Of a stretch of DNA of 64,000 nt, positions 28,786 through 43,442 are shown piece by piece. A program made the position numbers and the translations under genes. Below the pieces are notes generated by a model, which did not search any database, was not told the DNA's origin, and saw only the letters and a program-made list of their open reading frames with translations. Source of the DNA: an archaeon (GTDB lineage Archaea > Thermoproteota > Nitrososphaeria > Nitrososphaerales > Gagatemarchaeaceae). The DNA is taken from contig JAKAUC010000013.1 in NCBI GenBank assembly GCA_021827865.1, positions 62,001-126,000 on the forward strand. The letters are read 5' to 3'. Position 1 is the first letter of the stretch; each line of letters begins with the position of its first letter.

Positions 28786-28806
28786 GACCACCAGCTCCAC
28801 GCCAGT

Positions 28807-29052
28807 ATGGCACAATCGAAAAGCGCGTCTGAGGCTGAAAAGTCTGTCGTAGAAGGAGTCTTGGAGGCCCTTTCAGACAAACACTCGCAGCTCGACGTCA
28901 ACCTTCAGGGGATGACGGTGAAGTTCCCGAACATGGGGATAGGCATTGAGTTCAACGGCCTTGTCACTGTGACGGCTCACGTCAGGGACATGACCGAGGA
29001 CGAAAAGAAGGCTTCGGCAGCGAAGAACGTTGGGCTGATGTCGAAGGCATAG
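28807..29052 (+). CDS. hypothetical protein, 81 aa
   Basis: A small soluble protein with a helical N-terminal half (E-A-E-K-S-V-V-E-G-V-L-E-A-L) and a beta-type second half containing V-K-F-P-N-M-G-I-G-I-E-F-N-G-L-V-T-V-T-A-H-V-R-D. No known domain is recognised. The strong TATA box and a leaderless ATG suggest a well-expressed gene. Confidence 0.65.
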   Translation: MAQSKSASEAEKSVVEGVLEALSDKHSQLDVNLQGMTVKFPNMGIGIEFNGLVTVTAHVRDMTEDEKKASAAKNVGLMSKA

Positions 29053-29071
29053 AAGCGCCCAAAGCCAGAGT

Positions 29072-29479: not shown

Positions 29480-29777
29480 TCAGCAAGCTCGAGGAAGAGG
29501 GACTTCGCGCCGCTCTCTGGGATTAGCACAACAGCCGCGCACGCGGGCTCTTGTAATACGTCTATCGCACGGGGAACGGACTCGGTGAAGAGGGTCGCGC
29601 CATAGTCCGTCGGGCCGGCGCGAGCTTGAACAAGAAACCTTCCCCGATGCTGTCGATGATTTCGCGTAGAGTGGGTTGGGAAACGCTGAAGGCCAGTGTC
29701 GGCTCGGTGAGCTTCTGCGCCTGTACGGCGAAGATGGCGGCCATGGTAGTTGGCGCTGGTGCCATCGGCCCGCTTTC

Positions 29778-30032
29778 TTAGGCGACGATGGGATTACAGC
29801 CGAAGTGTAAGCCGCCCTGCCAATAGAAATCGCCTACCCCTATGAGCCTGCAGCTCAGCAATTGTCTGTAGTGGATGAATCCGCTGGCAGGCGCGCCGAG
29901 TAAGGCCACTCCGCCCTGAGATGTTGCACCGAGCACCGGGACCCCGAGCACAAGCGCCACAGCGAGCAATAGGCCAACGGCAAGCGCCCCCCTCCGCCTT
30001 CCCGATTTAGGCCCAGGGGCATCCGCGCTCAT
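29778..30032 (-). CDS. small exported protein, hypothetical
   Basis: An 84-residue protein with a basic N terminus (K-S-G-R-R-R) and one hydrophobic helix (A-L-A-V-G-L-L-L-A-V-A-L-V-L), then about 45 outside residues with two Cys (L-S-C-R and F-G-C-N) likely to pair. The ATG at complement 30030-30032 is chosen because the upstream in-frame stretch is Pro/Ala-rich and has no signal. Between this gene and 29479 (about 300 nt) I see only a doubtful 67-residue frame and no clear gene. Confidence 0.5.
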   Translation of the reverse strand: MSADAPGPKSGRRRGALAVGLLLAVALVLGVPVLGATSQGGVALLGAPASGFIHYRQLLSCRLIGVGDFYWQGGLHFGCNPIVA

Positions 30033-30179
30033 GGCGGACGCTCCTATATCGCGCCAGGTTATTGGCCTACCGGCGAGAACATCGAGGAGAGGCGACGACG
30101 CTGAGGGCCATGCTGCAGGTGGCGCCACCGCCAAGGATAGCATCGGCGGCAGCATAGGACGACCCAACCGGGAGCCCGC

Positions 30180-30416
30180 TCAGCTCATCGCTCCGCTCTT
30201 CCAGTGCTTCGGGGCGTGGTACAATTGCATCAAGCGCAAGAGGACGAAGATCGTTGCCACGTCTACGAGGGCCAGAGGTATGTAGAGCAAAGAAGATGGG
30301 GGGATCAGATGGCCCGCGTAGCCGCTGAAGGCCAGCACGAGCAGGCAGGCCAAGAGTGTCGGCCATCTGTGCTTCCAGGCCCGTGAAGCCCGCAACTCCT
30401 CCGGTGTCAGTGTCAT
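30180..30416 (-). CDS. small two-TM membrane protein, hypothetical
   Basis: A 78-residue protein starting MTLTPEELRA with two predicted helices (about 20-38 and 45-66) linked by a short Pro/Ser loop, and a basic tail. No family recognised. Both ends are polar and probably cytoplasmic. The longer upstream frame is not used because it lacks a promoter and has a different composition. Confidence 0.55.
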   Translation of the reverse strand: MTLTPEELRASRAWKHRWPTLLACLLVLAFSGYAGHLIPPSSLLYIPLALVDVATIFVLLRLMQLYHAPKHWKSGAMS

Positions 30417-30615
30417 GACCGGCTTTCGTTCCCTTCGGTCCTTGGAGTGACTTAAACCTAACCTGCAGCCTCGCTGGCTCTGCAGAAGCTGGGACACAGC
30501 TCGTTCTGACTCCCCGCTACCCGCGACCCTTCGCTTAAACGGCTCCTAGACTCATGCTTGCCTTCTGCCGATTTAGTTTTAAACCACTCCGTCAAACAAC
30601 TGGTGGTCAGAGCCC

Positions 30616-31490
30616 TTGACGATGGATTGGGCGAAGAACGGCCCTTTGAGGGGGAAAGTTGCATTGGTCACTGGGTCCAGTCGTGGGGTTGGGAAGGGGA
30701 TTGCGCTTGTTCTCGGCGAAGCGGGGGCCACGGTGTTCGTGACCGGGCGAAGCGTGCGTGGAAAGCCTACGACTCAGGGGCTTCCGGGGACCATCCAGGA
30801 AACAGCCGAGGAAGTCACTGCCAGAGGAGGAAAGGGGGTCCCGGTCAGATGCGACCATTCCCTTGACAGTGATATCAAGAAGCTCGTATCTCAAATCCGA
30901 CGGAAGGAAGGCTGGACATGCTGGTGAACAATGCCTTCGGAGGGGAAGAAGGGAGCAAGAAGATAGTCACCTACGACGAACACCCCTTCTGGAGACACGA
31001 CTTCGAGGAGTGGTGGTATCGCATGTTCTCGGCCTAACTTAGGTCGACCATGGCGACAACGTTCTATTCCCTCCCGCTGATGCTCCATCGCCGGGGCGGC
31101 CTCGTCGTCAATACATTGTGGTGGAACAGAGGTCAGTACCTCTGGGACCTATTCTTCGACGTGGCGTCCGACGGCGTAGGAAGAATGCTCTACGGCCTAT
31201 CCAAGGAAGTTCGCCGAAGCGGAATCACTGCAGTTGCCATCTCTCCAGGGTGGACTCGCACCGAGAGGATGGTTGAAGTTCCGAAAGAGAAACTGGCGCG
31301 ACTTCCGTCCCCAGAGTACGTCGGACGAGCCGTGGTGCATCTGGCGCTTGACAAGAAGAGGCTGAAGAAGAGCGGGCAGATCTTTGAAGTCGGCGCGTTG
31401 GCCAAGGAATATGGATTCAGAAACGTCGATGGGCGACTGATCGACTATCACGCCGAACTCGCAGGGCGGCCCCCGCCAGTTCCGGACTGA
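30616..31490 (+). pseudogene. short-chain dehydrogenase/reductase, disrupted
   Basis: The cofactor motif G-S-S-R-G-V-G-K-G is near the start, followed by T-G-R-S and a normal SDR N-terminal half up to about 30900. The match then continues in another frame from about 30910 (L-D-M-L-V-N-N-A), so there is one frameshift between about 30900 and 30917. A TAA (31035-31037) interrupts the second part where SDRs have N-L-R-S-T. The remainder to 31490 (V-A-I-S-P-G-W-T-R-T-E, then the C-terminal helices) is intact. The usual YxxxK region is degenerate: S-x-x-x-Y/L-S-K is reduced to M-L-Y-G-L-S-K. Two lesions make decay likelier than an assembly error. Confidence 0.8.
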
Positions 31491-31566
31491 GATTGCGCGT
31501 TATGCACATGGTGTCGTACGACCTCGGAAACGCAGGAGTCGCACATGCAATTAACTAAAGTGGTAA

Positions 31567-31576
31567 CTTTATTAAG
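31567..31576 (+). promoter_or_regulatory. TATA box of the arsR-like gene
   Basis: CTTTATTAAG is centred 27 nt before the ATG at 31598, in an AT-rich stretch (31550-31590) that also holds TAACTAAAG and ATCTTTAGT, weakly inverted copies that could be an autoregulatory operator. Confidence 0.5.
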
Positions 31577-31597
31577 TAATATCTTTAGTAGCCCGCC

Positions 31598-31930
31598 ATG
31601 GATGCCTTCTACGCCTTGGCAGAGCCCCACAGGCGCAAAGTGGTGGAGATCCTCGCCCACAGGGGCCAGCTCAGCGCGACCCAAATCTGCGAAGAGTTCG
31701 ATGTGACCCCACAGGCGGTATCTCAGCACCTCAGAGTGCTCAGGGAAGCGAACGTAATCCAGATGGAAAGGAGAGCCCAGAAGAGACTCTACGCATTCAA
31801 TCCGCAGTCGGTGCGCGAGGTCGAAAGGTGGGCGGCCGACATGACAGAGATGTGGGAGAGCAACCTCGACCGGCTGGACAAGGCTCTGAAGGACGAAGCG
31901 GCTTCGGCCAGGGGAAGGAGAGCGCGTTGA
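31598..31930 (+). CDS. ArsR family transcriptional regulator
   Basis: A 110-residue winged-helix protein. It starts with the ArsR pattern A-L-A-E-P-H-R-R-K-V-V-E-I-L, has L-S-A-T-Q-I-C-E-E-F-D-V-T-P-Q-A-V-S-Q-H-L-R-V-L as the HTH and a wing ending R-L-Y-A-F-N. No Cys metal site of ArsR/SmtB sensors is present, apart from one Cys in the HTH. Regulators of this type are typically paired with an AHSA1-domain gene, as here; the pair overlaps by TTGA. Confidence 0.9.
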   Translation: MDAFYALAEPHRRKVVEILAHRGQLSATQICEEFDVTPQAVSQHLRVLREANVIQMERRAQKRLYAFNPQSVREVERWAADMTEMWESNLDRLDKALKDEAASARGRRAR

Positions 31931-32400
31931 CGGCCGGCGAACAGGGCGTGGTGAAGGTCACACGGGTCTTCGACTTCCCCCGAGAATCGGTCTTCAGGAT
32001 GTGGACGGACACAAAGAAGCTTGCGGAGTGGTGGGGCCCCGAGGGATGCGTCAACGTCCGCTCGGAAGTGGACCCGAGGCCGGGAGGCAAGATGAGGGTC
32101 GACCAGCGCAGCCCCAAGGGAGACATCTCCTCGTTCAACGCAACGTTCGAGAAAGTCATCCCGCTTGAGCTCCTGGTCTACAGGTCTGCGTCGCCTGGAA
32201 CGACCGACGAATATGGCGGCTTTTCCCCCTGGGAGTCCCTTCACACAGTGACATTCGAAGAGCTCGGCCCTGGGAAGACCCGGGTGACTGTGGTAACGAA
32301 GGTCATCGCAGGCCTGCCGGAAGAGCGCGAAACCATCGTGAGTGCATACAGGGAAGGCTGGGGCCAGTCCCTCGACAAGCTGCAGAGAGCGCTCCGCTAG
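31927..32400 (+). CDS. SRPBCC/AHSA1 domain protein
   Basis: A 157-residue protein with the activator-of-Hsp90-homologue layout: V-T-R-V-F-D-F-P-R-E-S-V-F-R-M-W-T-D, then L-A-E-W-W-G-P-E-G, R-P-G-G-K and a C-terminal amphipathic helix ending W-G-Q-S-L-D-K-L. The fold is a hydrophobic-ligand cavity. The TTG start overlaps the ArsR TGA (TTGA, 31927-31930), which fixes the start; the longer frame only shadows arsR. ArsR-AHSA1 pairs are common but their ligand is mostly unknown. Confidence 0.85.
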   Translation: MTAGEQGVVKVTRVFDFPRESVFRMWTDTKKLAEWWGPEGCVNVRSEVDPRPGGKMRVDQRSPKGDISSFNATFEKVIPLELLVYRSASPGTTDEYGGFSPWESLHTVTFEELGPGKTRVTVVTKVIAGLPEERETIVSAYREGWGQSLDKLQRALR

Positions 32401-32737
32401 GCCGCTCCCGTTCAGGAAGCTCAGTCTGGTCCGCTGGCCGTCGCCAGCGTCCAGAGGCTGGCACTCGCCTATACGGGGGTGAGCCCCAATCTCCCCCCAT
32501 TCACTCCCGCGAGGTCCCTCCATGTTCACATGGCGAGGATTATCCTCAGTGCATGCTCCAGGGAAATCGCTCCTCGCAGGCTTCCTCTGGGACGTTCGAT
32601 CATGGAACCGGCTGTCCAAGCAGAGCACCGCCAAGATGGGGTACTGTGCTGACGCTGTGCTGACGCCGTGCTGGAGAAGCCTCGGCGCCCGAACCTCTCG
32701 ACCGTGGGGTCTACCATCCTGGCGACGGGGCCTGGAT
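32401..32737. other. gene-poor region with a short tandem repeat
   Basis: No convincing gene is seen in these 337 nt. At 32645-32673 the unit TGTGCTGACGC occurs twice followed by a partial third copy (CGTGCTGG). Weak open frames on both strands have no recognisable similarity. The region lies between a complete gene and an SDR remnant and may be decayed sequence. Confidence 0.35.
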
Positions 32738-33001
32738 TTATGACATCAATTCGTAAGACAAGGACCTCGTCGGTCTTACCAATGCTATCCTGGACCAGCT
32801 TGGTCTGTCTTCATCTCTAGAAGCAAGAACGACTTTCGCACCTGCTCTCGCGAATAGTACAGCGGTTGCCATCCCGATCCCGCGGCCGGCACCGGTGACG
32901 ATACCTGCCTTGCCCTTGGGCAGGCCTCGAAGGCTGCTGAGCTGTGGAAGAGCGGGAAGCTGTTCGCCCTGGCTGACGGTGGCGGGACCTTCCTGCGACA
33001 T
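32738..33001 (-). pseudogene. short-chain dehydrogenase N-terminal remnant
   Basis: Residues 30-67 of the frame read G-K-A-G-I-V-T-G-A-G-R-G-I-G-M-A-T-A and then A-G-A-K-V-V-L-A-S-R-D, a clear Rossmann dinucleotide site of an SDR. The similarity ends abruptly after about 65 residues; the remaining 180-190 residues of an SDR, including the catalytic Tyr, are not found downstream. It is a truncated second SDR, 1.2 kb from the first disrupted one. Confidence 0.7.
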
Positions 33002-33024
33002 ACTCTCATCTCACCACGTCTTGG

Positions 33025-33429
33025 CTAGGTCGTGCCTCCGGCCGCCTGGTCTCTCAGCATGGCGAAGGATCGCCCTACAAGCGTCATCGCGTAGATGAGG
33101 ACGGCGATCAGCAGGTGGACCCACGAAAGGATGGCGTTGTCAAGAGCGCCCACCATCGTCACCCCGATGCCGATCTGTATGACCAGGAGAAGGACCATCG
33201 CCTTCGACAATTCGTTGAGCCCCTTGTGCGGAGGCTTCGACCTTAGGGCCGCCACAGCGGCGGCGCTGACGAGGGCGAAGACGACGACGCCGTTCGCAAC
33301 GTGCAGTAGCGTCGAGAGGCCGAAGGACGAGACTGTGTAAGGCAGGACTCCGAAGGTGATTAGGCCGCCTAGAGCGATTTGAACGAAGACAGCCAAAGAC
33401 GCTACCCGGAAGAGATTCGGGACGTTCAT
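33025..33429 (-). CDS. four-TM membrane protein, half-size CtaA/Cox15-like
   Basis: A 134-residue protein with four helices (about 8-30, 38-60, 72-94, 100-122). The pattern Q-I-A-L-G-G-L in helix 1, L-L-H-V-A-N-G in helix 2, I-Q-I-G-I-G-V in helix 3 and W-V-H-L-L-I-A in helix 4 resembles heme A synthase, which in some archaea exists as a four-helix half-size protein. Helix His residues could bind heme. The similarity is partial, and a generic DoxX/cytochrome-like protein is possible. Its ATG overlaps the upstream SRPBCC stop (ATGA). Confidence 0.5.
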   Translation of the reverse strand: MNVPNLFRVASLAVFVQIALGGLITFGVLPYTVSSFGLSTLLHVANGVVVFALVSAAAVAALRSKPPHKGLNELSKAMVLLLVIQIGIGVTMVGALDNAILSWVHLLIAVLIYAMTLVGRSFAMLRDQAAGGTT

Positions 33430-33896
33430 TCCATCTCGGCCCTCCCGCTTCTGGTCCCGCGCGTGATGGCCCTCGTTCCTTCCGCCGCTTCCCCGATCCT
33501 CTTCAGAGCGTCCTTGGTCACCCTCTCAAGCTGAGTCTTCACGAAGGCCTGGGCAAACTCCGGCACCCCCGAGAACCTGAAATCCCAGGAGATAGCTACC
33601 GTCGTCTTTGCGCCGTCACTCAATCGGGTCAGCTTGAGAACCCTCGTCCCTCTCAGCGGTCCGCTGGTCATGATTAGCTCCAATGATTCCTTCGGATGAA
33701 GCCTGATCGTCTGCTTCCCCTCGCGGCCTATGAATCCGACAGTGGCCTGGCGCTCAATCGTGTTGCCGCTTCTTCGGATGTTGCGGACTGAGCTCAACCC
33801 GCTCCAATACTCCGGGTCTCTGTCAACGTCCGACACGATGTCCCATGCGCGGTCGATATCCGCGTCGATTACCTTGCTTTCCGTGATAGACGCCAC
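33426..33896 (-). CDS. SRPBCC (polyketide cyclase/START-like) protein
   Basis: A 156-residue protein with S-K-V-I-D-A-D-I-D-R-A-W-D-I-V-S-D-V-D-R-D-P-E-Y-W opening, a central antiparallel sheet and a long C-terminal helix with a basic Arg-rich tail. This is the ligand-binding START-like fold; members include coenzyme Q-binding and aromatase/cyclase proteins. It is the first gene of a two-gene unit with the four-TM protein. Ligand unknown. Confidence 0.8.
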   Translation of the reverse strand: MASITESKVIDADIDRAWDIVSDVDRDPEYWSGLSSVRNIRRSGNTIERQATVGFIGREGKQTIRLHPKESLELIMTSGPLRGTRVLKLTRLSDGAKTTVAISWDFRFSGVPEFAQAFVKTQLERVTKDALKRIGEAAEGTRAITRGTRSGRAEME

Positions 33897-34017
33897 CGAC
33901 TTCTCCCCGCCTGGTCCTCAGCTGGGCTGACCCTGAATTTAGTCGGTTCCCAAACGGGGTTCGTGTTTTTGGTCAGCTTTTTAGAACGGTGGATACGCTC
34001 CGCAGTCCTGAAGCGGC

Positions 34018-34947
34018 TTGTGGTCCCAGGACAAGGCCTACTCCGACCTCATGCAGGAGCTGTGGGGTTCCCCCACCAGATGGAACGCCAGAAAGACGTA
34101 CACGGACGTGGCGCGCAAGCTCGGCGTCGACGACGAGACCGTGCGGAACAGGCTCAGGCACATGAAGGAGAGCGGATTCTTGGTCGGCTGGAGGCTTGTG
34201 CCCAACCCTTCATTGATGGGACGCGAATCCGCCCTGTTGTACCTCGAATTCGCTGACCCAGAGTCAAAGCAAGAGGCGATCTCACGGCTGGCGAGGACGG
34301 GCGGGGTGGTCATAATCGCGAGCGTCTACGGTTCGAGTCTCCTCCTGACCCTTTTTGACGACGCGAGCCGCGCATTATCCAAGCGCATCGCAGGGATGTA
34401 CCGGAGCGTGAAAGCGCAGACCATCCCCGGCATGCGTTTCCCTCGGAGCGCCTTCCGAATGACCGTCACGGACTGGCAGATAGTCAGACAGATGCTGGGG
34501 GACGCGGAGCGGAGAATCTCCGGGGTGGCCAAGGAAGTCGCAGTCTCTCAGCGCACAGTGAAGAGAAGGCTCGACCGGATGATGGATTCCTCGGCCATCT
34601 TCGTGATGCCCATGATCAACCAGAGCAGGTCCGACGGCGTAGCCTACCAGCTAATGGTCGAAGGGGAGAGCATGAGTTCCACTGAGGTGGAGAAGCTGGT
34701 CGCGCCGAGAATAGAGAACCTTGTTTTCAGGGCGCCTTACTCCAAGAGCGGGACAATCTTCGGGTTCTACGGAAGAAACGTGGCGGAAGGGAGCGAGCTC
34801 CTGCGGTGGATCAAGGCGCAGCCAGGGGTCAGGTCTGCAAGGATGAGCATCATCGAGGACATCAAATACGTGTCCGACTGGCTGGAAACCGAAACGGAGC
34901 GGCTCGGTGGAGTTATCGCAGCCTCACGAGGGCTCGGTGGCGGCTAG
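34018..34947 (+). CDS. tandem-HTH Lrp-like regulator (paralogue A)
   Basis: A 309-residue protein with two Lrp-like halves. HTH 1 lies at about 25-55 (T-Y-T-D-V-A-R-K-L-G-V-D-D-E-T-V-R-N-R-L), followed by a RAM-like domain; HTH 2 is at about 165-200 (R-I-S-G-V-A-K-E-V-A-V-S-Q-R-T-V-K-R-R-L-D-R-M). A second RAM-like region with F-G-F-Y-G-R follows. The same layout occurs in the protein at 41069-42103. TTG start; a TATA-like box is at 33976-33985. Targets unknown. The 3' end overlaps the convergent DUF998 gene by 24 bp. Confidence 0.8.
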   Translation: MWSQDKAYSDLMQELWGSPTRWNARKTYTDVARKLGVDDETVRNRLRHMKESGFLVGWRLVPNPSLMGRESALLYLEFADPESKQEAISRLARTGGVVIIASVYGSSLLLTLFDDASRALSKRIAGMYRSVKAQTIPGMRFPRSAFRMTVTDWQIVRQMLGDAERRISGVAKEVAVSQRTVKRRLDRMMDSSAIFVMPMINQSRSDGVAYQLMVEGESMSSTEVEKLVAPRIENLVFRAPYSKSGTIFGFYGRNVAEGSELLRWIKAQPGVRSARMSIIEDIKYVSDWLETETERLGGVIAASRGLGGG

Positions 34948-35544
34948 CTTTCTCTGGGAAAGGAGGTAGCTGCCGAACGCTACTTCCCAGATGAGCAGCG
35001 GGTAGACGACTGCCCGCTCCCATCCGCCCGGTCCCAGGGTCTGCTGCATGAAGGCGGAGTTGTAACCACCAAACTCAACCAGTGCGCCGACAAGGCTCAC
35101 GACACCAAGGGACAGGAAACAGAACCGCAGAGGAGGACGAACCTCTCTGTAGGACAGCAACACCACGATGATCCCAGTGAAGATCCCCAGCACGCTCCCC
35201 GCCGAGTGCAAGGCGATGCTTACGTTCTCGGGGAAAGCGGCCACCAGCATTATGCCCGCCCCGGGCAGAAGGCCCAGCATCATGGACCCCCTCCTTCGCC
35301 TGTTCCTCCAGAAGAAGTAGGCCCCAAGAAACCAGAAGAGACCCCAGACCAGCACGGCCGGCTCGTAGAACCAGAAGGTCGCTGCCCCGAGTGCCCCCAG
35401 GTCGCTGATCGCGTTGGCGTGCACACTATAGCCTGGATATGTTGCTTCGCCGAACATCGTCAACAGGAGGAATTCCGTCCCCGAAATGAACAGCAGGGCG
35501 CCCGCGTTCCTCTCGTCCGTGCCCCTCTTGTCTGGGTTCGCCAT
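34924..35544 (-). CDS. DUF998 family membrane protein
   Basis: A 206-residue protein with six helices. It has the DUF998 features: G-Y-S-V-H-A-N-A-I-S-D-L-G after helix 1, E-N-V-S-I-A-L-H-S-A in helix 4 region, and a final helix followed by a short basic tail. Function of the family is unknown. Four nucleotides separate its start from the stop of the upstream PPOX gene, so they are co-transcribed. Confidence 0.8.
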   Translation of the reverse strand: MANPDKRGTDERNAGALLFISGTEFLLLTMFGEATYPGYSVHANAISDLGALGAATFWFYEPAVLVWGLFWFLGAYFFWRNRRRRGSMMLGLLPGAGIMLVAAFPENVSIALHSAGSVLGIFTGIIVVLLSYREVRPPLRFCFLSLGVVSLVGALVEFGGYNSAFMQQTLGPGGWERAVVYPLLIWEVAFGSYLLSQRKLAATEPS

Positions 35545-35547
35545 CTC

Positions 35548-35994
35548 TTACCCGTCCTGACTACCCCTCCCGGGGTCAAGGCTGATGGAAAAATACGCCG
35601 TCTTTCCCCAGAACAATCGCTCGAGGAAGAAGACGAAGTAGCTGATTATGGTGAACCTCCTGGTGAAGGCCTTGCGCACCCCCTTGGCTTCTTCGCCTTC
35701 TACCCGAGCCGCCGTTCCGTCAAGCCAGTCCCCCTTTGGCTCTCCTCGAAACGTGGAAGGCGCCACGCGGACCCTCGGACTCCTGGCTACCCTCTTTGCC
35801 TTCCAAGCATTCACCGCGGTGTGAAAGTAAAGTTTGCCGTTGCGCTCCACGAAGATCACGGGCGTCCGTTTAGGTTCACCGTTTCGCTTGTAAGACTCCA
35901 GATTGAGCACCCTTTGATTCTTGAATGAATCGAGCTTCTGCTCAAGCCACGAGGGAATCGCCACCGATTCGTCCGGATGCGGATTCGAGGCCAT
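35548..35994 (-). CDS. PPOX-class (pyridoxamine phosphate oxidase fold) F420/FMN-dependent oxidoreductase
   Basis: A 148-residue split-barrel protein: R-V-L-N-L-E-S-Y-K-R-N-G-E-P-K-R-T-P-V, then K-L-Y-F-H-T and K-A-K-R-V-A-R-S-P-R-V-R-V, the pattern of PPOX proteins that bind F420 or FMN. It ends in a S-I-S-L-D-P strand. Probably an F420-linked reductase if the host makes F420; no F420 genes are in the window. Confidence 0.8.
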   Translation of the reverse strand: MASNPHPDESVAIPSWLEQKLDSFKNQRVLNLESYKRNGEPKRTPVIFVERNGKLYFHTAVNAWKAKRVARSPRVRVAPSTFRGEPKGDWLDGTAARVEGEEAKGVRKAFTRRFTIISYFVFFLERLFWGKTAYFSISLDPGRGSQDG

Positions 35995-36170
35995 CCATCA
36001 GGGGATGGTCTGCATCTTGTTTCTAAGCGCCTCCCAAAGACTGGTCGCGTTTTTGGACAACGGGAAGCCTGACTGATGTGGCGACGTCACAGCAGTGTAA
36101 GGGCGTTTGAAACCATGCGCACAGGCGCTTAACGCTGGAGGCGCAGCAAAAGCCACGGTCTATTCATTTG

Positions 36171-36767
36171 TCACGTGGTCTCTAGCTTGACGGCCAGGAA
36201 CTCTCCCTTCCCCACATGAAGGACCTGGCCAAGGTATCGGCCGGATTCGTTGACCCGGGCGAAGAAGTCGACCAGCTCTTCAGGCTTCGGCTCGACGGCG
36301 TTGTCGACTACCAGGACCCCGCCCGGTTTGAGGGCGCGGTCGACTTCACCCCAGTAGTCAAGATACTCGGTGCGCTCCGCGTCCATGAACACTAGATCGA
36401 AGGAGTGGAGGGATAGCGTCCTCAAGAATGACCGGGCGTCCCCCTGGTGCAGGTCTACGAGGTTCGATAGGCCGCTTGCCCCGATGTTTTTGCTGGCCAG
36501 CTCTTCTTTCTCAGGGGACACTTCCACGGACACCACCTTCCCCCCTCGTTGCCGGAGCGCTTCAGCTATCCATATCGTAGAATACCCGTTCGAAGTTCCG
36601 ATTTCAAGCACCCTCCTGGCTCCTGTAGCCCGGACCAGGATGGAGAGGAAGAGCCCCGTATCCGGGGTGATGTTCAGCATCCGCCTTCTACGGTCGGTGG
36701 TCTTCAGGTCGTGCGCTTCTCCTGATTCGTAGACCCCCCTCAGCAGCCTCGCCAGGCTGTCTTCCAA
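36171..36767 (-). CDS. class I SAM-dependent O-methyltransferase (family 3)
   Basis: A 198-residue methyltransferase with V-L-E-I-G-T-S-N-G-Y-S-T-I-W as SAM loop, V-E-V-S-P-E acidic ribose-binding strand end, Q-G-D-A-R-S-F-L and F-D-L-V-F-M-D-A-E (metal-site Asp) and V-V-D-N-A-V. It is of the catechol-type O-methyltransferase family that methylates catechols or other small hydroxylated compounds. It lies beside the TrmB regulator and the Cys-rich protein locus, on the same strand as the regulator, with a 139-nt gap. Confidence 0.85.
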   Translation of the reverse strand: MEDSLARLLRGVYESGEAHDLKTTDRRRRMLNITPDTGLFLSILVRATGARRVLEIGTSNGYSTIWIAEALRQRGGKVVSVEVSPEKEELASKNIGASGLSNLVDLHQGDARSFLRTLSLHSFDLVFMDAERTEYLDYWGEVDRALKPGGVLVVDNAVEPKPEELVDFFARVNESGRYLGQVLHVGKGEFLAVKLETT

Positions 36768-36906
36768 CTAGCCTGACTCCCCTTCCCGAATTGCTCCTGA
36801 AAGCAACGGCAGCCAAGGGAGAGGCGAGGCATTAAACATGATGCACCCAGGGGGGACGACAAGATGGAAGGGCGCGCTCCCGGAAAGTCTCGCCGTGGCG
36901 GATGGG

Positions 36907-37662
36907 CTAGAGATTTGACCTGACTTCTATGTCCACGGCTTTGGAAGTTGAACAGCAGGCAGGATTCTCGTAGCTCTGTCTGCTCATGTAGATCATCGAC
37001 TCGTCCTGGGTGACGACCGCCCGGAAGTTCGCAGGCGCGTCTCCGGACACCGTGAACAGCTTCTCGGAGTCGACGATGAGAATGTTGCTCGCGCAGCAGA
37101 GGGTCTTGCTCGGCGTGATTTCCAACTTCGGGGCCCCCCTGAAGGCACCACCGGCGAGAGCCAGCTTGATGCTGGAACCTCTCTTGCGGGCCCTCTTCAG
37201 CGATTCGGCGATTCCAGCCAGGAGCGTCTCGTTGTCGAACATGACCACGACTTCCTTTCTGGACGCCTCTATCGTCTCTTTCATCTTCTCCACTATGTTG
37301 CGCGAGCTCTTGATGATATAGGCCAGTTCCGCGTCTTCGCCGCCTCCACTGGTCCGGATAGGCTCGAGGAGCTTGGCCAGCTCCTTCACTTTCTTCGACC
37401 GCCTCTGGTGGTCGGCATCGATCTGACTCTGAAGGTTCGAGGCAATCTGGTCCGTACCCATCGCCCGATACTGACTGGGGGTGCCATGTTGGACCATAAT
37501 CAGGCTCTTCTCTTCAAGCTCCTTGAGAGCGTAGTAGATCTTGGAGTCGGGGATGCCTGTCAGGTTGCAGAGGCTGGTGGCCGAAACTGGCTGGTTTTCC
37601 AGGATAGAAAGGAAAGCCTTCGCCGCATAGGCGGTGATTCCGAGCTCCCTGATCCTTGACAC
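36907..37662 (-). CDS. TrmB family transcriptional regulator with two Cys-Cys pairs
   Basis: A 251-residue regulator. N-terminal winged helix: A-A-K-A-F-L-S-I-L, V-S-A-T-S-L-C-N-L-T-G-I-P-D-S-K-I-Y-Y-A-L-K-E-L, with Y-R-A as wing. A coiled-coil-like linker (about 75-105) leads to the TrmB effector domain. TrmB proteins normally sense sugars, but here C189-C190 (L-C-C-A-S-N) and C236-C237 (A-C-C-S-T-S) invite a metal or redox role, together with C32. It is divergent from the Cys-rich protein gene, with inverted repeats between. GTG start. Confidence 0.82.
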   Translation of the reverse strand: MSRIRELGITAYAAKAFLSILENQPVSATSLCNLTGIPDSKIYYALKELEEKSLIMVQHGTPSQYRAMGTDQIASNLQSQIDADHQRRSKKVKELAKLLEPIRTSGGGEDAELAYIIKSSRNIVEKMKETIEASRKEVVVMFDNETLLAGIAESLKRARKRGSSIKLALAGGAFRGAPKLEITPSKTLCCASNILIVDSEKLFTVSGDAPANFRAVVTQDESMIYMSRQSYENPACCSTSKAVDIEVRSNL

Positions 37663-37707
37663 TATGGCTTCTTTTGCTTCGTCGACCTCGACCGGTCGCG
37701 TGTTCTT

Positions 37708-37772
37708 ACTCCCTCTGAGTAGTGGGAGTTAGAAAACCGATATATACTTTCCTACTACCTGCGGTAAGTAGG
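37708..37772. promoter_or_regulatory. two inverted repeats flanking the TATA box of the Cys-rich gene
   Basis: ACTCCC (37708-37713) is repeated inverted as GGGAGT (37724-37729) after 10 nt; CCTACT (37751-37756) is repeated inverted as AGTAGG (37767-37772) after 10 nt. The repeat centres are 43 bp apart. Between them GATATATAC (37739-37747) is a TATA box, 27-29 nt before the GTG at 37772, which lies in the second repeat. A regulator bound at the second repeat would block the start site; the divergent TrmB protein is the likely ligand. Confidence 0.6.
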
Positions 37773-38062
37773 TGAATACAAACACGTCGAACCAAGTAAA
37801 TGAGCAGCAGGCAGCAGCGGAGGCCAAACCAAAGGGCGGCTTCGCCGGCAAGGAAATCCCCATGGTCGCCACCGGCAGCTGTTGCGGGACCGGAGCCGCA
37901 GGAAGCTGCTGCGGAACCGAGGGCTCGGCCGTCGGACAGGCGGGGGACTGCTGCGGGAACGTCTCCCAGGCGTCCGGGGCCAAAGCTGCCGGAGGCTGCT
38001 CCGGTGACGAGGCCGCTGCGCCTTCCTGTGGATGCGGGTCGTCAGATTGCTGCACGACCTAG
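37772..38062 (+). CDS. cysteine-rich small protein (11 Cys), function unknown
   Basis: A 96-residue protein with no Cys in its first 36 residues (Asn/Gln/Ala/Lys-rich leader with G-G-F-A-G-K-E-I-P) and 11 Cys in the last 60: C37-C38, C46-C47 and C60-C61 each in a C-C-G motif, then C76, C86, C88 and C93-C94. The spacers are Gly/Ala/Ser. No membrane segment. It could be a metallothionein-like metal store or a precursor peptide with a leader and a Cys core. The leaderless GTG start has the best promoter of the region. Its stop lies inside the start of the M28 peptidase gene. Confidence 0.72.
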   Translation: MNTNTSNQVNEQQAAAEAKPKGGFAGKEIPMVATGSCCGTGAAGSCCGTEGSAVGQAGDCCGNVSQASGAKAAGGCSGDEAAAPSCGCGSSDCCTT

Positions 38063-39372
38063 ACCCGGCCCAAGGAGGCACCTTCGACCCCCTCGAGGCA
38101 GAGGGGGCCTCCCCCATTTTGCCAACGCCGGAGCCCTCTTTGCGAGAACTCCATCCAGAGTTGCGCCGTCTCCTAGCCCTTGTCTCCACCGAGCGGACAA
38201 GCGAGACCCTGAGGGAGCTGTGTTCAGAGAAGTTCCGCGGAAGGAGCAATGCGTCAGGCAACGCCCTTGCAGCCGAATGGATCGAGTCCAGGCTGTCAGC
38301 TCCAGGGCTCCGCCTTGGAACGCAGCCGTTCATGATATCGACCCCTGTCTTCGACCTGCGATCCCTGCCTGAGCTGACGCTGGTCGACGGAAGCGGGCCT
38401 TCGCGTTCCTTCGAACACAGGGTGGAGTTCGCGGAGCACTACAGGTCCGCCCCGCTGATCTACGCCAGGGAGGGCCTTGCGAAGCCCTGGGACCCGAGCG
38501 TCGGCCATGGGGGCGAATGGGCTATCGCGGCCAAAGCCCTTGGAGGGAGCGAACTCGAGGAGGCCAGCCGCCTTGCTGCCGCCGCAGGCGCCATTGGACT
38601 CCTCATCCCGAATGGCGTCGGGGGGGACGGCTTCATGTCGAAGCAGCTGCTGGGAATGCCTGCGGTCCAACTTCCGGTGCTCCGAGTGAGGCCGGACGTC
38701 CTGTCTGGGCTTGGCGGCAAGAGAATCCGCGCGTCCGTTCCCGTCCAGAGGAAGTCGAGCTCTGGCAGCAACATCGAAGCTGTAATCCCTGGGAGTAACG
38801 CAGATTTCGCAGGGTCGCCGCTGGTCCTCGGCGCCCACTACGACGCCGTAGGCGACGATCCCGGAGGCCATCGGTTCCAGGGGGCAGGAGACAACGCCGC
38901 CGGGGTCGCTGTCATCCTCGAGCTGGCCCGGCTGCTGTCTTCGTCTGGCAGCAAACCCGCCAGACCCATCAGGTTCGTGGCCTTTGACGGAGAAGAGGTT
39001 GGCGCCCTGGGGTCGAAGGCGTATGCCGAGGGCCTCCTGCGCGAGGGCGCGGACCCTATGGTGATCAACCTCGATGGGGCCGCAGCCTACAACGGGGTCG
39101 CCTACGTGGAGGCGAGCCAGAACGCAGGCCTAATCGTCGACGCCCTAGACTTCGCGGGGGCGGAACTGGGGGTGCCTCTCGCCTTTGGGAACATAGCCTC
39201 CGACAACAGGATGTTCGCAGGCCGGGGCTTCAAATCCGTGGGCGTAGCGCTGGGCGCCAGGGCCATCCACTCGCCTGCTGACACCTTCGAGTCAGTGGAC
39301 CCGCAGGCGACGAGAAGGGCCGTCGAGCTCTTGCTCACGACCGCCTGGAAGCTGGCGTACTCGAACCAGTAG
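38032..39372 (+). CDS. M28 family zinc aminopeptidase/carboxypeptidase with PA-like insert
   Basis: About 446 residues without a signal peptide, so cytoplasmic. The di-zinc site is complete: H269 and D271 in L-G-A-H-Y-D-A-V-G-D, D287 in G-A-G-D-N-A-A-G-V, E321-E322 in F-D-G-E-E-V-G-A-L-G-S, D348 in I-N-L-D-G-A-A and a late His in I-H-S-P-A-D-T-F. Residues about 100-240 form a protease-associated-type insert. ATG 38032 overlaps the Cys-rich gene by 31 bp, so the two are coupled; TTG 38047 is an alternative. Peptide or amide hydrolysis is expected; the partner peptide could be the Cys-rich product or a glutathione-like thiol. Confidence 0.82.
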   Translation: MRVVRLLHDLDPAQGGTFDPLEAEGASPILPTPEPSLRELHPELRRLLALVSTERTSETLRELCSEKFRGRSNASGNALAAEWIESRLSAPGLRLGTQPFMISTPVFDLRSLPELTLVDGSGPSRSFEHRVEFAEHYRSAPLIYAREGLAKPWDPSVGHGGEWAIAAKALGGSELEEASRLAAAAGAIGLLIPNGVGGDGFMSKQLLGMPAVQLPVLRVRPDVLSGLGGKRIRASVPVQRKSSSGSNIEAVIPGSNADFAGSPLVLGAHYDAVGDDPGGHRFQGAGDNAAGVAVILELARLLSSSGSKPARPIRFVAFDGEEVGALGSKAYAEGLLREGADPMVINLDGAAAYNGVAYVEASQNAGLIVDALDFAGAELGVPLAFGNIASDNRMFAGRGFKSVGVALGARAIHSPADTFESVDPQATRRAVELLLTTAWKLAYSNQ

Positions 39373-39390
39373 AGGGGATCGGACTCGAAC

Positions 39391-40728
39391 CTGGGCAAGA
39401 TCAGAGAGGACTTTCCCGTCATCAGCGAAGGGACGATGGACGGGAAGAAGCTGGTCTATCTCGACAGCGCGTGCCAGTCCCTGAGGCCAAGGCAGGTCGC
39501 GGATGCGATCGGTGGTTACTACAGCGACCTCGGCAGCTGCACCGGTCTGCTTGCTTCGTCAAACGCCCTCGCGGCTAGGACACAGTCCCTCGTGTCGGAA
39601 GCAAGGGTGAAGATGGCGCGTTTCATCGGCGCCGACGAGTCGGAAGTGATCTGGCAGCCCAACACGACATATGGGATGAACTTGGTCGCCATGAGCCTGA
39701 GCAGCCGCTACTGCCCCCCGGGGATCAGAATGGCGAAGGGAGACAACGTCGTTACCACAGACGCAGAGCATCACAGCGGCCTCCTCCCCTTCTGGAAGTT
39801 AGAGCAGGAGAAGGGCGTCCGTCATAGGATCTTCCCAGTGGGCAGCGGAGGCGAAATCGACCTGCAGAAGTTCCAGGACTTCCTCCCCAGGAGGACTAGG
39901 CTCATCTCAGTGGCGTGGGCGTCGAACGTCACCGGGATCATCAACCCCGTCGAGGGACTGGTGAAGATAGCGCACGACAACGGGTCCATGGTCCTTGTGG
40001 ACGGCGCCCAGTATGCCCCCCATCACCCTGTGGACGTGGGGGCCTTGAAGATGGACTTCCTGGCCCTCTCGGTGCATAAGATGTGCGGGCCGTCTGGGAC
40101 GGGGGTTCTTTTCGGCGTCAGGGAGCTTCTGGAAGAGATGCCCGCTGTGATGGTAGGTGGAGAGACGGTAGACGACGTCTCCATCGCAGACGGTCCAGGC
40201 GGACCGAAGGTGTCCCCTAGGTTCAGGGGCCCTCCGGAGCGCTTCGAGCCGGGGCTCCAGAACTTCGCCGGGATAATCGGGGCGGGGGCAGCGGTTGACT
40301 ATCTGAGCAAGGTCGGAATGGAAGCGGTAGAGCGCCACGAAGACGGTCTTACGGGGTACATGATGTCGAGGCTGGCCGACGTCCCTGGCGTAGAAGTCGT
40401 GGGGCCTCAAGCCTACGAGGCGGGCAAGCACGCGGCGCTGGCTTCGTTCAGGGTCAGGGGTAAAGAGGGCAAACTGATCGAGTCGGACAGAATAGCACGC
40501 TGGATGGACGAGGGCGTGCCGGGGCACAAGATCCTGCTCAGGTCGGGCGGTCACGAAGCCCACCCCCTCCTCAGAAGGCTGGGCATCCCCGAACTGTCTA
40601 CAAGCCGTGCGTCGTTGTATCTCTACAACGAAGAGGCGGATGTCAGGCTCCTGATCGAAGCGTTGACGAAGTTGAGGCAGTTAGATGTGGGAACCAAGAA
40701 CCCTGGGTCCCCTAGAGCCCCGAACTAG
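39391..40728 (+). CDS. class V PLP enzyme, SufS-like but lacking the catalytic Cys; probable CTG start
   Basis: A SufS/NifS-superfamily protein. PLP-site elements are intact: E-H-H-S-G-L-L-P-F-W, V-D-G-A-Q-Y-A-P-H, and the Schiff-base Lys in L-S-V-H-K-M-C-G-P-S-G-T-G. The SufS segment R-T-G-H-H-C-A-x-P-L reads R-S-G-G-H-E-A-H-P-L here, so the desulfurase Cys is Glu (codon 40555-40557). It may be a lyase, epimerase or aminotransferase rather than a sulfur donor. ATG 39436 would miss the conserved I-R-E-D-F-P; the in-frame CTG at 39391 includes it. The frame is the same as the M28 gene and 18 nt after its TAG. Confidence 0.8.
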   Translation: MGKIREDFPVISEGTMDGKKLVYLDSACQSLRPRQVADAIGGYYSDLGSCTGLLASSNALAARTQSLVSEARVKMARFIGADESEVIWQPNTTYGMNLVAMSLSSRYCPPGIRMAKGDNVVTTDAEHHSGLLPFWKLEQEKGVRHRIFPVGSGGEIDLQKFQDFLPRRTRLISVAWASNVTGIINPVEGLVKIAHDNGSMVLVDGAQYAPHHPVDVGALKMDFLALSVHKMCGPSGTGVLFGVRELLEEMPAVMVGGETVDDVSIADGPGGPKVSPRFRGPPERFEPGLQNFAGIIGAGAAVDYLSKVGMEAVERHEDGLTGYMMSRLADVPGVEVVGPQAYEAGKHAALASFRVRGKEGKLIESDRIARWMDEGVPGHKILLRSGGHEAHPLLRRLGIPELSTSRASLYLYNEEADVRLLIEALTKLRQLDVGTKNPGSPRAPN

Positions 40729-40785
40729 AGAGCGGATGACTGTCTTTCAACACCCTGCGCATGCTGTTGGAACGGAGAAGGACGG

Positions 40786-41136
40786 TCACTGTCCGCCCAG
40801 GATAGCAGAGAGCAGTTTCCTCTCTGCCTTCCTTCTGTGCATCACAAGCGTAGGCTCTCGAATGCCAAGTTGTTCCGCGAGGTCTTCAGAACCCACCCTC
40901 CTGGGCACGTCGTAATAGCCCATCTTGAACGCGGTGATTATCACCTTGCGCTGCTTGCCAGTCAGTCGGTAGAGAGGAGAGTCAGGGAGGAACTTCGCAT
41001 CTGCCAAGGAGACGACTCTGTAGAATACCCCAGATTTGCTGATGATTCCCAGGATCCTCTGGACCGCTTTAGCGTTGGCCAGGAAGGTTGCTCGCAGTCG
41101 CCCGACCTGGACTTCGAACGGAGGGGAGAGATACAC
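40786..41136 (-). CDS. Bat/HTH_10-type DNA-binding protein
   Basis: A 116-residue protein. Its second half is the HTH_10 (bacterio-opsin activator type) domain: L-T-G-K-Q-R-K-V-I-I-T-A-F-K-M-G-Y-Y-D-V-P-R-R-V, then L-A-E-Q-L-G-I-R-E-P-T and R-R-A-E-R-K-L-L. The family usually has a larger N-terminal sensor domain; only about 50 residues precede the HTH here, so it is short or truncated. The GTG start overlaps the 3' end of the tandem-HTH regulator by 68 nt; an internal CTG (R-A-T-F-L-A-N) would reduce the overlap. Confidence 0.7.
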   Translation of the reverse strand: MYLSPPFEVQVGRLRATFLANAKAVQRILGIISKSGVFYRVVSLADAKFLPDSPLYRLTGKQRKVIITAFKMGYYDVPRRVGSEDLAEQLGIREPTLVMHRRKAERKLLSAILGGQ

Positions 41137-42103
41137 TCCGGGGCCTAGAGGGTCCGCCCGCGCGTCGACGGTCCGGCGGCGTCCCCCTTTGTTCTTTCGC
41201 CACCAGGAGCTCCGCCAGCTTCTCTGGGAACATCAAGGTCTTGGTCACTATGTCCGACCTGGCGCCCGCGAGCCCGGGTTGCGCCTTTGCCCACTTCAGG
41301 GCCTCCCGGACCTCCACCATCGTCGACGCGCCGATGAGGACCCAGCCGCTGTCAGGGTCAGAGAATCCTCCCCACAGGTAGCTAGCGTCGAATCGCGACA
41401 GCATGGCCCGGTCCACGGCCTCCTTCGCTCCGCCGTTCGCGTATGAATAGGACAGCACGGCAGGTATCAGCCCGGCTGTCCCCCCTAGGTTCACGTTAGG
41501 GAGGGTAAACACGGCGTTCTCGCTCCTGAGCTTCACGGCCCTGTTCCTTACCGTCCTAGCCGAGAGCTTCAGCTCTTTGGCGATGTCTACGAAGCTCTTG
41601 CGGGCGTCGCGCGCCAAAGAGCGGATTACGGCGACGTCGGTCTCGGTGAACCGCTCCATCCTGCAGCGGGGGAGGGCCCACCTGACCTGGGTCAGCGTTT
41701 CCGCATTGGTTATGCGGGAGACCAGCTCGATGGTCCGCGATTTCGACTCCTCCCCGCCTGTGATCACGGTCAGCCTCAACGCCCTCCCGTAGAAGTCGAT
41801 TATCCCAACCACCTCGTGGACCACCCTGAGCTTCCGTATCATGTCATCCTTCCCCGACTCCGGCTCGACATCCACCAAAACGTCAGTCAGCCCGCACCCA
41901 AAGTGGCCTGGGTTGGTCATGAGCAGCCAGTCGGACATAGTCCCCGACCTCAGCATGCGCCTGTAGCGATAACTCACCTTGGCGTCATCCGCCTCGAGCC
42001 GCTTGGCTATCGAGCTCAGGGATTCGTTCACCTGAGACATGGACGGGGCGACCGCGCCCTCGAAGATGAGCGCCCGGAGTATCCTGACGTCTAACTCGTC
42101 CAC
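41069..42103 (-). CDS. tandem-HTH Lrp-like regulator (paralogue B)
   Basis: A 344-residue protein with the same double Lrp layout as the 34018 gene: HTH 1 near residues 5-50 (S-L-S-S-I-A-K-R-L-E-A-D-D-A-K-V-S-Y-R-Y-R-R-M), a RAM-like domain, HTH 2 near 155-190 (S-F-V-D-I-A-K-E-L-K-L-S-A-R-T-V-R-N-R-A), and a second RAM-like domain with V-L-I-G-A-S. The last 35 residues are Pro/Arg/Ser-rich and overlap the next gene, so they may not be conserved. The GTG start is 26 nt from CCTAAATAGG, a palindromic TATA box (42124-42133). Confidence 0.78.
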   Translation of the reverse strand: MDELDVRILRALIFEGAVAPSMSQVNESLSSIAKRLEADDAKVSYRYRRMLRSGTMSDWLLMTNPGHFGCGLTDVLVDVEPESGKDDMIRKLRVVHEVVGIIDFYGRALRLTVITGGEESKSRTIELVSRITNAETLTQVRWALPRCRMERFTETDVAVIRSLARDARKSFVDIAKELKLSARTVRNRAVKLRSENAVFTLPNVNLGGTAGLIPAVLSYSYANGGAKEAVDRAMLSRFDASYLWGGFSDPDSGWVLIGASTMVEVREALKWAKAQPGLAGARSDIVTKTLMFPEKLAELLVAKEQRGTPPDRRRAGGPSRPRSVSLPSVRSPGRATASNLPGQR

Positions 42104-42123
42104 CCTGTCCGAAGCGGCCGTTT

Positions 42124-42177
42124 CCTATTTAGGCGTCGCTTCCCTTTCGGCTAAATCGCTTAGCCAGCTCCTTAAGT
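42124..42177. promoter_or_regulatory. divergent promoters, regulator B and SRPBCC gene
   Basis: CCTATTTAGG (42125-42134), a 10-bp palindrome, serves as leftward TATA box for the regulator starting at 42103. CTCCTTAAGTCC (about 42168-42179) is the rightward TATA box, about 31 nt before ATG 42205. GGCTAAATCGCTTAGCC (42149-42165), an imperfect 17-bp palindrome, lies between them and is a plausible operator. Confidence 0.5.
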
Positions 42178-42204
42178 CCGCGCCGATTCTGACGAACAGC
42201 GGAC

Positions 42205-42642
42205 ATGGCGAAATTCGAGAAGAGCGTCCTAATCGAGCGCCCTGCAGAGACTGTCTGGAAGTTCATCGCGGACTTTTCGAATGTGATGAAGTCCACCCCG
42301 CACGCCCCGGACCTTCGGCAGGTCTCCTCGGGCGCGTTGGGGTTGGGGACGACGTTCTCAGGAAAGGACGGGAGAGTGACCCTCGAGCTGCGGATCACAG
42401 AATTCTCGCCAAACCAGAGGCTGGTCGCCGAGTTCGTCAAGCCGGGGTTCGTGAAGGGAACGACCGACGTCTACCGCCTGGAGGAGATTGATGAAAAGAC
42501 GAGACTGACCGAGACGTGGGATACGAGGTTGAACGGTCTCTACAGGCTGTTGGGACCCTTCTTCGCTCCAAGGACCAAGAGAGATGTGACAGCCAGGCTG
42601 GACAACATCAAACGCACGCTGGAGCTAGAAAGGGTGCCCTAG
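42205..42642 (+). CDS. SRPBCC (polyketide cyclase/START-like) protein
   Basis: A 145-residue ligand-binding fold: I-E-R-P-A-E-T-V-W-K-F-I-A-D-F-S-N at the N terminus, P-D-L-R-Q-V-S-S-G, and a long C-terminal helix (D-V-T-A-R-L-D-N-I-K-R-T-L). It is the third SRPBCC protein in 11 kb. It is divergent from the tandem-HTH regulator and may be controlled by it. Confidence 0.82.
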   Translation: MAKFEKSVLIERPAETVWKFIADFSNVMKSTPHAPDLRQVSSGALGLGTTFSGKDGRVTLELRITEFSPNQRLVAEFVKPGFVKGTTDVYRLEEIDEKTRLTETWDTRLNGLYRLLGPFFAPRTKRDVTARLDNIKRTLELERVP

Positions 42643-42821
42643 GGTTCTGCATCCGACACCACGCACATGGTGTTCAATTGGCGAACACAGCTCTGGCTGG
42701 GTAGCCAGTTGGGATTCACGATTTCACAGCCCGCCGCCTACGATGGTCTGCGTCGCTCGAGAGGAGAGCCCTTGACCGATACAGAGGTTTCCGGATGCTG
42801 GACAAAGACCTCAATCGGGCG

Positions 42822-43442
42822 TCATATCCGCCTGATGAGATAGTCCTCTGTCACGCGTCGCTCCCCTCTAGGTGAAGTCGGGGTTTCTGCCCGCCATCGG
42901 AACGAAGTCTGGGAAATCTCCGAGAAGATCCATAGTTCGCCCTTCCATCCCGCGCCTTCTTCGCGGAGAACAATCTCCTCCCCCTCTTTTCTGCCGATGA
43001 AGCGGCGAACAGCGCGCTGGTAGGGCGAAACCCATGTGCTTCTCCAGGCACGAATTGAGGGGTCGTAGAAGCGGAGGGTCGTTCCCTGAGGGACGAGCCT
43101 CCCAGATTCGCCGTCGAGCGGCCCCCAGACGTCTTGGATGCCGGTGCCTCCGAGCGCCCACCTCGCGTGAACTTCACCTATCTTCTTCACTGGGCCACGT
43201 CGCCGTTCAGACCCCGGAGGCAATATGTCCCAGTCCCCTACAAATTGACCGAAGAGCATCAACCGACCTTTGAGCGCAGGGACCGGGCCGCTGGCTCCCA
43301 GTCCGCTGAGCTGCCATCCCTCATCCATTGACTTTAGAATCATCTCGCGGTCTTTAGCGTTCGTCACTGGCGGCTCGCCTGGGATCGGCGCCACGTTTCG
43401 CGATATTTGGCTTTCTCCTGCGAAGGGGACTGAGCGCGCCAC
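42822..43442 (-). CDS. hypothetical protein, DUF1579/calycin-like
   Basis: A 206-residue protein. The middle (about residues 60-190) has the G-D-W-D-I opening, then E-V-H-A-R-W-A-L-G-G-T-G-I-Q-D-V-W-G, T-T-L-R-F-Y-D-P-S-I-R-A-W-R-S-T-W-V-S-P and I-F-S-E-I-S-x-T-S-F-R-W, the pattern of DUF1579-like lipocalin/calycin beta-barrels. The true start may be later (residues 26-39) because the N terminus is poor. Ligand unknown. Confidence 0.6.
   Translation of the reverse strand: MARSVPFAGESQISRNVAPIPGEPPVTNAKDREMILKSMDEGWQLSGLGASGPVPALKGRLMLFGQFVGDWDILPPGSERRRGPVKKIGEVHARWALGGTGIQDVWGPLDGESGRLVPQGTTLRFYDPSIRAWRSTWVSPYQRAVRRFIGRKEGEEIVLREEGAGWKGELWIFSEISQTSFRWRAETPTSPRGERRVTEDYLIRRI

Follow-up and report, generated by a model that had tools for sequence, protein, structure and literature searches.

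What does a small, very cysteine-rich protein do in an archaeon of the Gagatemarchaeaceae, what does the regulator encoded divergently from it sense, and which of the surrounding genes belong with them? The locus lies in a 64,000-nucleotide stretch of contig JAKAUC010000013.1 (positions 62,001 to 126,000; hereafter the window, in which all positions below are given unless stated otherwise). The initial annotation had proposed a larger system, in which the Cys-rich protein and a TrmB-type regulator were joined by an M28 peptidase and a SufS-like enzyme, and had offered two functions for it: metal- or sulfane-responsive storage with processing enzymes, or a ribosomally synthesised and post-translationally modified peptide (RiPP). 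The actual unit is smaller than that and consists of the TrmB-family regulator and the divergent protein with 11 Cys. It is likely that the regulator is a metalloid-sensing repressor which controls a Cys-rich metalloid-binding protein. In this proposal the family of the regulator, its Cys signature, the dyad, the position of the dyad and the neighbours of the relatives are taken from sequence, while dimerisation, repression, the ligand and the function of the protein are deduced. The features of the locus are:

36907..37662, minus strand: TrmB-family regulator of 251 residues, with a winged helix and a PLD-like C-terminal domain (from Pfam, alignment A4 and the structure model)
37567-37569, 37093-37098 and 36952-36957: signature Cys of the regulator, namely C32, C189/C190 and C236/C237, respectively
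37740..37746, plus strand: TATA box ATATATA of the Cys-rich protein gene, ending 25 nt 5' of the GTG at 37772
37752..37771, no strand assigned: predicted operator CTACTACC-TGCG-GTAAGTAG, a dyad of the TACT-N10-AGTA type, between TATA box and start codon
37772..38062, plus strand: Cys-rich protein gene, 96 residues with 11 Cys in CCG, CxC and CC motifs, with a leaderless GTG start

The divergent TrmB-type regulator with two Cys pairs, as initially described, was borne out. The protein matched the winged helix PF01978 (E 1.9e-13, 50.5 bits, cutoff 25.6) and the C-terminal effector domain PF11495 (E 7.8e-7, 29.0 bits, cutoff 22.2), and the Cys pairs lie in LCCASN and NPACC motifs. A first structure model, made from 4 sequences, was poor (predicted local distance difference test, pLDDT, 49.2) and was replaced by a model based on alignment A4, with a mean pLDDT of 84.7 and a predicted template modelling score of 0.52. 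The closest folds to this model in Foldseek were TrmBL2 (1.0e-15) and TrmB (6.3e-10), followed by PLD-like proteins such as NucT. Against HTH_5 (PF01022) the regulator scored 17.4 bits, below the cutoff of 22, which places it outside ArsR/SmtB; its mode of action may still resemble that of an ArsR.

Searches with the regulator in 121 relatives found G023 (same genus, 64%), G059 (51%) and a fragment in G090, the remaining matches being weaker TrmB proteins with E-values no better than 3e-17. In 400 genomes of the order, six had a match at E<=1e-25, namely G000, G008 and G177 (window DNA), G023, G059 and G090. Among 398 genomes of the phylum there were 13 matches at E<=1e-20; those at E<=3e-49 were the window's own and G632, G651, G556 and G671. 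The order to which G556 belongs added seven new genomes, among 11 with a match at E<=1e-40 out of 162. The resulting set (alignment A4) comprises 14 distinct full-length sequences, the window's and 13 orthologs, and leaves out G008 and G177 as window-identical DNA, G090 and the 8 weaker phylum matches. The G090 remnant (L081:3166-3627) retains the C-terminal Cys domain only; its winged helix is gone and a stop lies inside the match. Relatives of the regulator were absent from 77 candidate stretches of viral contigs, and 39 plasmid records matched it, with an identity of at most 23.4% among the matches listed.

In a midpoint-rooted tree the 14 regulators grouped together (support 97/95), apart from ten other TrmB rows that were drawn from a comparison set of 25. 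Cys is present at position 32 in all 14 regulators and at positions 190, 236 and 237 in 13 each. None of the 25 other TrmB proteins has Cys at any of these four positions. The 8 weaker phylum matches have Cys at position 32 in one case and at the other three in none; one gene is common to the set of 25 and the set of 8 (L120 = L024).

The genes beside the regulators were compared over about 4 kb per locus, the span being smaller for G059, G729 and G748, whose contigs are short. ArsM-like genes were found at 8 of the 14 loci, AhpD-like genes at four (G748 has both) and HgcA at one, so that 12 loci have at least one of them; at 20 control TrmB loci, two of them shorter at 4.6 and 6.1 kb, each of the three was found in none. 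Seven controls came from phylum members outside the order of the window and 13 from within it; most are thus from lineages other than the 11 genomes of G556's order, which is a weakness of the comparison. The arsenite methyltransferase model NF008823 was matched above cutoff by seven of the eight ArsM proteins (G632, G651, G736, G743, G729, G748 and G813), whereas that of G059 scored 228.7 against a cutoff of 263. In G556 the neighbours are HgcA (419.6 bits, cutoff 275) and HgcB (116.3 bits, cutoff 99). Only the window and G023 loci have no ArsM, AhpD-like or HgcA neighbour, and in G023 an ArsR gene (above cutoff), MerA (518.6 bits, cutoff 454.45) and two MerB-like genes (above the Pfam MerB cutoff, below the NCBIfam cutoffs) lie beside the regulator and its Cys peptide (L079:6969-9827). 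No sugar operon was recognised among the divergent neighbours read at the regulator loci.

Some further arrangements were observed at these loci. In G556 the regulator and hgcA-hgcB diverge from a shared spacer that holds an exact copy of the operator (L123:6032-8220), and beyond hgcA-hgcB, at 8701-9036, lies a gene weakly like ArsD/ArsE thioredoxin-like proteins. G736 (L136) and G733 (L139) each have a block of ferritin-like, cytochrome b5-like and ZIP-like genes, as judged by eye; the block is on one side of the regulator in G736 and on the other in G733.

The third line of evidence is the predicted operator. All 14 regulator loci have a TTTCTACTACY-N3/4-(GT)AGTA-like dyad that lies between the TATA box and the start of the divergent gene. 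In leave-one-out matrix scoring the held-out score was reached by none of 300 shuffles at each of the 14 dyads, the tightest margins being those of G736 (18.7 against a maximum of 17.1) and G023 (22.2 against 20.9); since the dyads were first spotted by eye in the same regions, this shows consistency and not discovery. The exact dyad, CTACTACNNNNNNGTAGTAG, occurs at seven places in the 162 genomes of the order of G556. These places are spread over six genomes, each of which bears the regulator, so that 6 of the 11 genomes with the regulator have the dyad, compared with none of the 151 without it (Fisher p 2e-8, uncorrected for relatedness). At six of the seven places the dyad sits at the regulator locus. 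The seventh is distal, in G733, and ends 20 bp 5' of an ArsM-like gene (L153:1501-2383), the product of which scores 170.6 bits with NF008823, under the cutoff of 263, and has an N-terminus that is rich in CC pairs and contains SCCETSSQESCCEPTCGE. According to the available parts of PMC4158304, TrmB-family sites 3' of the BRE (TFB recognition element) and TATA box, mostly over the start, are associated with repression, and known motifs of the family include TACT-N3-AGTA and TACT-N7-8-GAGTA.

A looser form of the pattern, TACTACCN{3,6}GTAAG, matched the operator site alone in the window's own genome; its second match in G059 lies inside a CDC48-like gene and one match in G051 inside an unrelated open reading frame (ORF). 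A further recurring element like TCAGAGAA was seen directly 5' of the TATA box across the 14 loci, the window version being GTTAGAAAACC at 37728-37738. This element may be a BRE or a second regulatory site.

The Cys-rich protein itself was read as an ORF from the GTG, with residues 1-36 free of Cys and all 11 Cys afterwards. Its composition, which the initial annotation had pointed out, stands up well: dinucleotide shuffles of the gene gave a mean of 2.8 and a maximum of 9 Cys, with 11 reached in none of 2000, and among 60-codon stop-free stretches in the six frames of the window 11 Cys occurred only at 37772-38062, the next two having 8. The leaderless promoter is likewise supported, by the positions of ATATATA and GTG. 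Metallothioneins are small and Cys-rich, with CC and CxC motifs, and the protein is like them in size, Cys content and motifs; no family match, metallothioneins included, was found for it in Pfam (E up to 1) or NCBIfam (E up to 0.1).

Conservation of the Cys frame in close species, on which the initial annotation had made its proposal depend, held in part. The frame is kept weakly in the congener G023 (BLASTP E 7e-5, 34% over 50 columns), whereas the full-length matches in a direct search were all 100% identical and represent the same DNA. Six weak matches (E 0.009-0.08) were discarded as chance, their sequences unread. The homolog in G023 is:

L079:6708-6836, divergent from the G023 regulator: short homolog, a Cys peptide of 42 residues

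The alignment of the two proteins covers VNxxTSNQ...GKxIPxxAT..C, with a closer likeness in the N-terminal part than in the Cys-rich part; in the window protein the N-terminal part holds an insert relative to the G023 peptide. In G059 the product of the gene divergent from the regulator has 94 residues, four Cys lie close to its N-terminus, and no family match was found for it in Pfam or NCBIfam. A terminator 3' of the Cys-rich gene was considered and rejected: the hairpins were no better than shuffles (z -1.0 in the window, z +0.5 in G023), and a terminator was therefore not used to separate the gene from the M28 gene.

We propose the following mechanism for this switch. A dimeric TrmB-type repressor would bind dyads of the CTACTAC-N6-GTAGTAG type that overlie the start of transcription of the divergent gene, and it may also control its own promoter, because the intergenic region is shared. 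A soft metalloid, most likely arsenite and possibly Hg(II) or antimonite, would be bound by the thiolates of C190, C236 and C237, and C32, in the winged helix, may join the site. Binding would release the regulator from the DNA, and the induced Cys-rich protein would then bind the metalloid, acting as a metallothionein-like sponge or carrier. Repression and release by a thiophilic metalloid are suggested by the site position, the Cys signature and the neighbours; ArsM, the most frequent neighbour, speaks for As(III) as the ligand, and Hg(II) is a further candidate because of HgcA and MerA/B. The metal- or metalloid-responsive option of the initial annotation is well supported by the 13 regulator orthologs, the shared operator and the arsenic and mercury neighbours.

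Several observations weigh against a metalloid switch in the window. The window locus has no ArsM, AhpD-like or HgcA within 4 kb and no mer gene was recognised there, so its metalloid link runs solely through the family of the regulator. Conservation of the Cys-rich protein is weak and confined to one congener. The Cys signature has exceptions, position 190 being Gly in G023, position 236 Trp in G748 and position 237 Tyr in G671; the G023 regulator has Gly at 190, yet Cys at 189 and 192. Four of the eight ArsM, three of the four AhpD-like proteins and the one HgcA went into the neighbour profiles, so that matches of these proteins are by construction, the controls being unaffected. The AhpD-like proteins match arsenic-associated models weakly, all of them below cutoff.

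The operator invites similar caution. The window dyad is degenerate, with two mismatches to the exact form. A reversed control pattern of the exact dyad matched 4 of the 162 genomes, so that it is the placement of the exact dyad that counts and not its number. Allowing one mismatch gave 18 places, distributed over 14 genomes: 10 at regulators, the distal site of G733 and 7 others away from regulators. The reversed control gave 5 places. The looser pattern was rejected as a predictor, not being enriched (11 of 61 genomes, against 28 of 61 for its reversed control).

The alternative that survives best, although unlikely, is that the regulator senses oxidant or thiol stress in the manner of OxsR and that the Cys-rich protein serves as a thiol buffer; the thiol stress caused by arsenite would then explain why arsenic genes are in the regulon. 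It has to be conceded that Cys thiolates are equally able to sense oxidants, as in OxsR, and that nitroreductase-like and AhpD-like genes are present in several divergent operons. As far as the available text of PMC9426492 goes, OxsR of Haloferax volcanii is a TrmB-family thiol sensor that, like the regulator, has a TrmB winged helix with a functional Cys; it is a single domain, with C24, and answers hypochlorite, whereas the regulator has two domains and four conserved Cys, three of which lie in or after the PLD-like domain. With 251 residues and a second domain it departs from the OxsR type, defined by a single winged helix and one conserved Cys at the dimer interface. The neighbours ArsM and HgcA, moreover, are metalloid-specific.

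There is rather less to be said for the Cys-rich protein as a copper or zinc metallothionein, with the regulator sensing such a metal, and we regard this as improbable. CCG, CxC and CC motifs fit any thiophilic metal, the window itself does not name the metal, and ZIP-like membrane proteins (recognised by eye) occur in G733, on the side of the regulator, and in G736, past the operon. However, the ArsM, AhpD-like or HgcA genes beside 12 of the 14 regulators indicate As or Hg, and no copper chaperone or pump was recognised in the ORFs read, copper families not having been searched for.

It is very improbable that the Cys-rich gene encodes a RiPP precursor in which VNxxTSNQ...GKxIPxxAT would be the leader and the Cys-rich part a variable core. 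The greater likeness of the N-terminal part between the window and G023 would fit a leader, but this part carries an insert in the window and the context of the regulon is metalloid handling. No maturase was recognised among the annotated neighbours of either copy, where RiPP-type models were matched only far below cutoff (for instance TIGR04188, 31.3 against 380 bits, by the O-methyltransferase); the RiPP option of the initial annotation was accordingly left unsupported. Least probable of all is that the Cys-rich protein, the M28 peptidase and the Cys-less SufS-like enzyme form one system, for although they share a strand with short or overlapping spacing, and a SufS-like start near 39391 would leave about 18 bp after M28, phmmer at E up to 0.001 found M28 and SufS-like homologs in none of the stretches around the other 13 regulators (3-14 kb each; G059 3.1, G729 3.1 and G748 5.5 kb), and the relatives have no full-length M28 ortholog beyond identical DNA. 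The larger gene set with processing enzymes and the conserved order of peptidase, SufS-like enzyme and TrmB gene were thus not retained, there being no co-occurrence in these stretches at the other 13 loci.

The three neighbouring genes were nevertheless correctly named. The M28 peptidase matches PF04389 (E 3.2e-31). Its overlap with the end of the Cys-rich gene hinges on the first ATG, at 38032, and a TTG at 38140 after GGAG is an equally plausible start; its closest solved relative aligns only from residue 80. No full-length ortholog was found in the 121 genomes (own included) except in the identical DNA of G008, and five other genomes of the 121 match over 85-128 residues. The frame of the SufS-like enzyme is:

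39388-40728: SufS-like frame, homology beginning at about 39388, 5' of the ATG at 39436

This enzyme is a class-V aminotransferase (PF00266, E 5.1e-90) which scores 350.6 bits with TIGR01979, under the cutoff of 475.1. As the initial annotation had noticed, the catalytic Cys of the SufS cysteine desulfurase motif R-[ST]-G-H-H-C-A is missing: Glu takes its place (RSGGHEAHPL), against Cys in 9 of 9 aligned relatives, and the lysine for pyridoxal phosphate is kept. The O-methyltransferase on the regulator's side was also confirmed (PF01596, E 1.7e-26); in the stretches around the other 13 regulators phmmer gave one marginal match for it (8.4e-4), to a methyltransferase frame in the ArsM region of G748. 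The M28 and SufS-like genes are probably unrelated to the switch, and they and the O-methyltransferase were treated as bystanders.

The window sits within a contig of 527 kb in a genome of 1.94 Mb. Window DNA recurs in other assemblies: L010 and L011 are identical to it across all 12,288 compared bases, the G177 contig (G177:C66) over 19,999 of 20,000 bases and the G008 contig (G008:C5) over the 3,288 bases compared, and identical DNA is present in the public records 'Nitrososphaerota archaeon isolate MAS4_bin.35' and 'archaeon isolate MAS5.bin16'. As these copies are the same DNA binned into other assemblies, they give no information on selection and no independent conservation. L010, L011, G008:C5 and G177:C66 are likely mis-binned contigs, G008 being listed as another member of the genus. 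The ORFs in window positions 28213-43442 have a third-position G+C content of mostly about 0.6-0.8, compared to about 0.75-0.93 for most ORFs in the flanks, and this part is perhaps an acquired region.

The metalloid-sensing regulator proposed here resembles TrmB, TrmBL1, TrmBL2 and VNG1451C in having a winged helix and a C-terminal PLD/TrmB-like domain (PF01978, PF11495). ArsR/SmtB arsenic repressors sense via thiolates, and they differ from the regulator in belonging to another protein family. With somewhat more confidence than doubt, we regard the 14 regulators as an archaeal counterpart of ArsR: a new clade of metalloregulators within the TrmB family, in which C190 and C236/C237, perhaps together with C32, form a thiolate site and one operator type controls arsenite methyltransferase, AhpD-like, hgcAB and Cys-rich metalloid-binding proteins, including that of the window. 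Like other TrmB-family regulators they have TACT...AGTA half-sites and a site 3' of the TATA box as in repressed promoters (PMC4158304, available parts); they differ in the Cys signature, the TACT-N10/11-AGTA spacing and the arsenic and mercury neighbours. The words 'metal' and 'cysteine' were not found in the available text of that review of the family. Judging from the available parts of PMC10349881 and PMC7438021, ArsR/SmtB repressors, among them the ArsR next to bacterial hgcAB, have ars or hgcAB genes beside them, as do relatives of the regulator; the archaeal hgcAB regulator proposed elsewhere is a PrlF/AbrB-type gene (PMC10349881, same parts).

Full-text literature searches, with most subscription papers outside their coverage, found no TrmB metalloregulator of this kind and nothing that joins TrmB, hgcA and archaeal regulation or that deals with a regulator of arsM in Bathyarchaeia; TrmB did not occur in the available text of PMC8261052. 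If the proposed switch is real, archaea would have a metalloid switch that belongs to neither the ArsR nor the MerR family and that comes with a searchable operator. The hgcAB genes of one archaeon would be tied to it, and, if the clade is what we take it to be, mercury methylation in some archaea would be under metalloid control by a TrmB protein. The orphan Cys-rich protein of the window would thereby gain a testable role.

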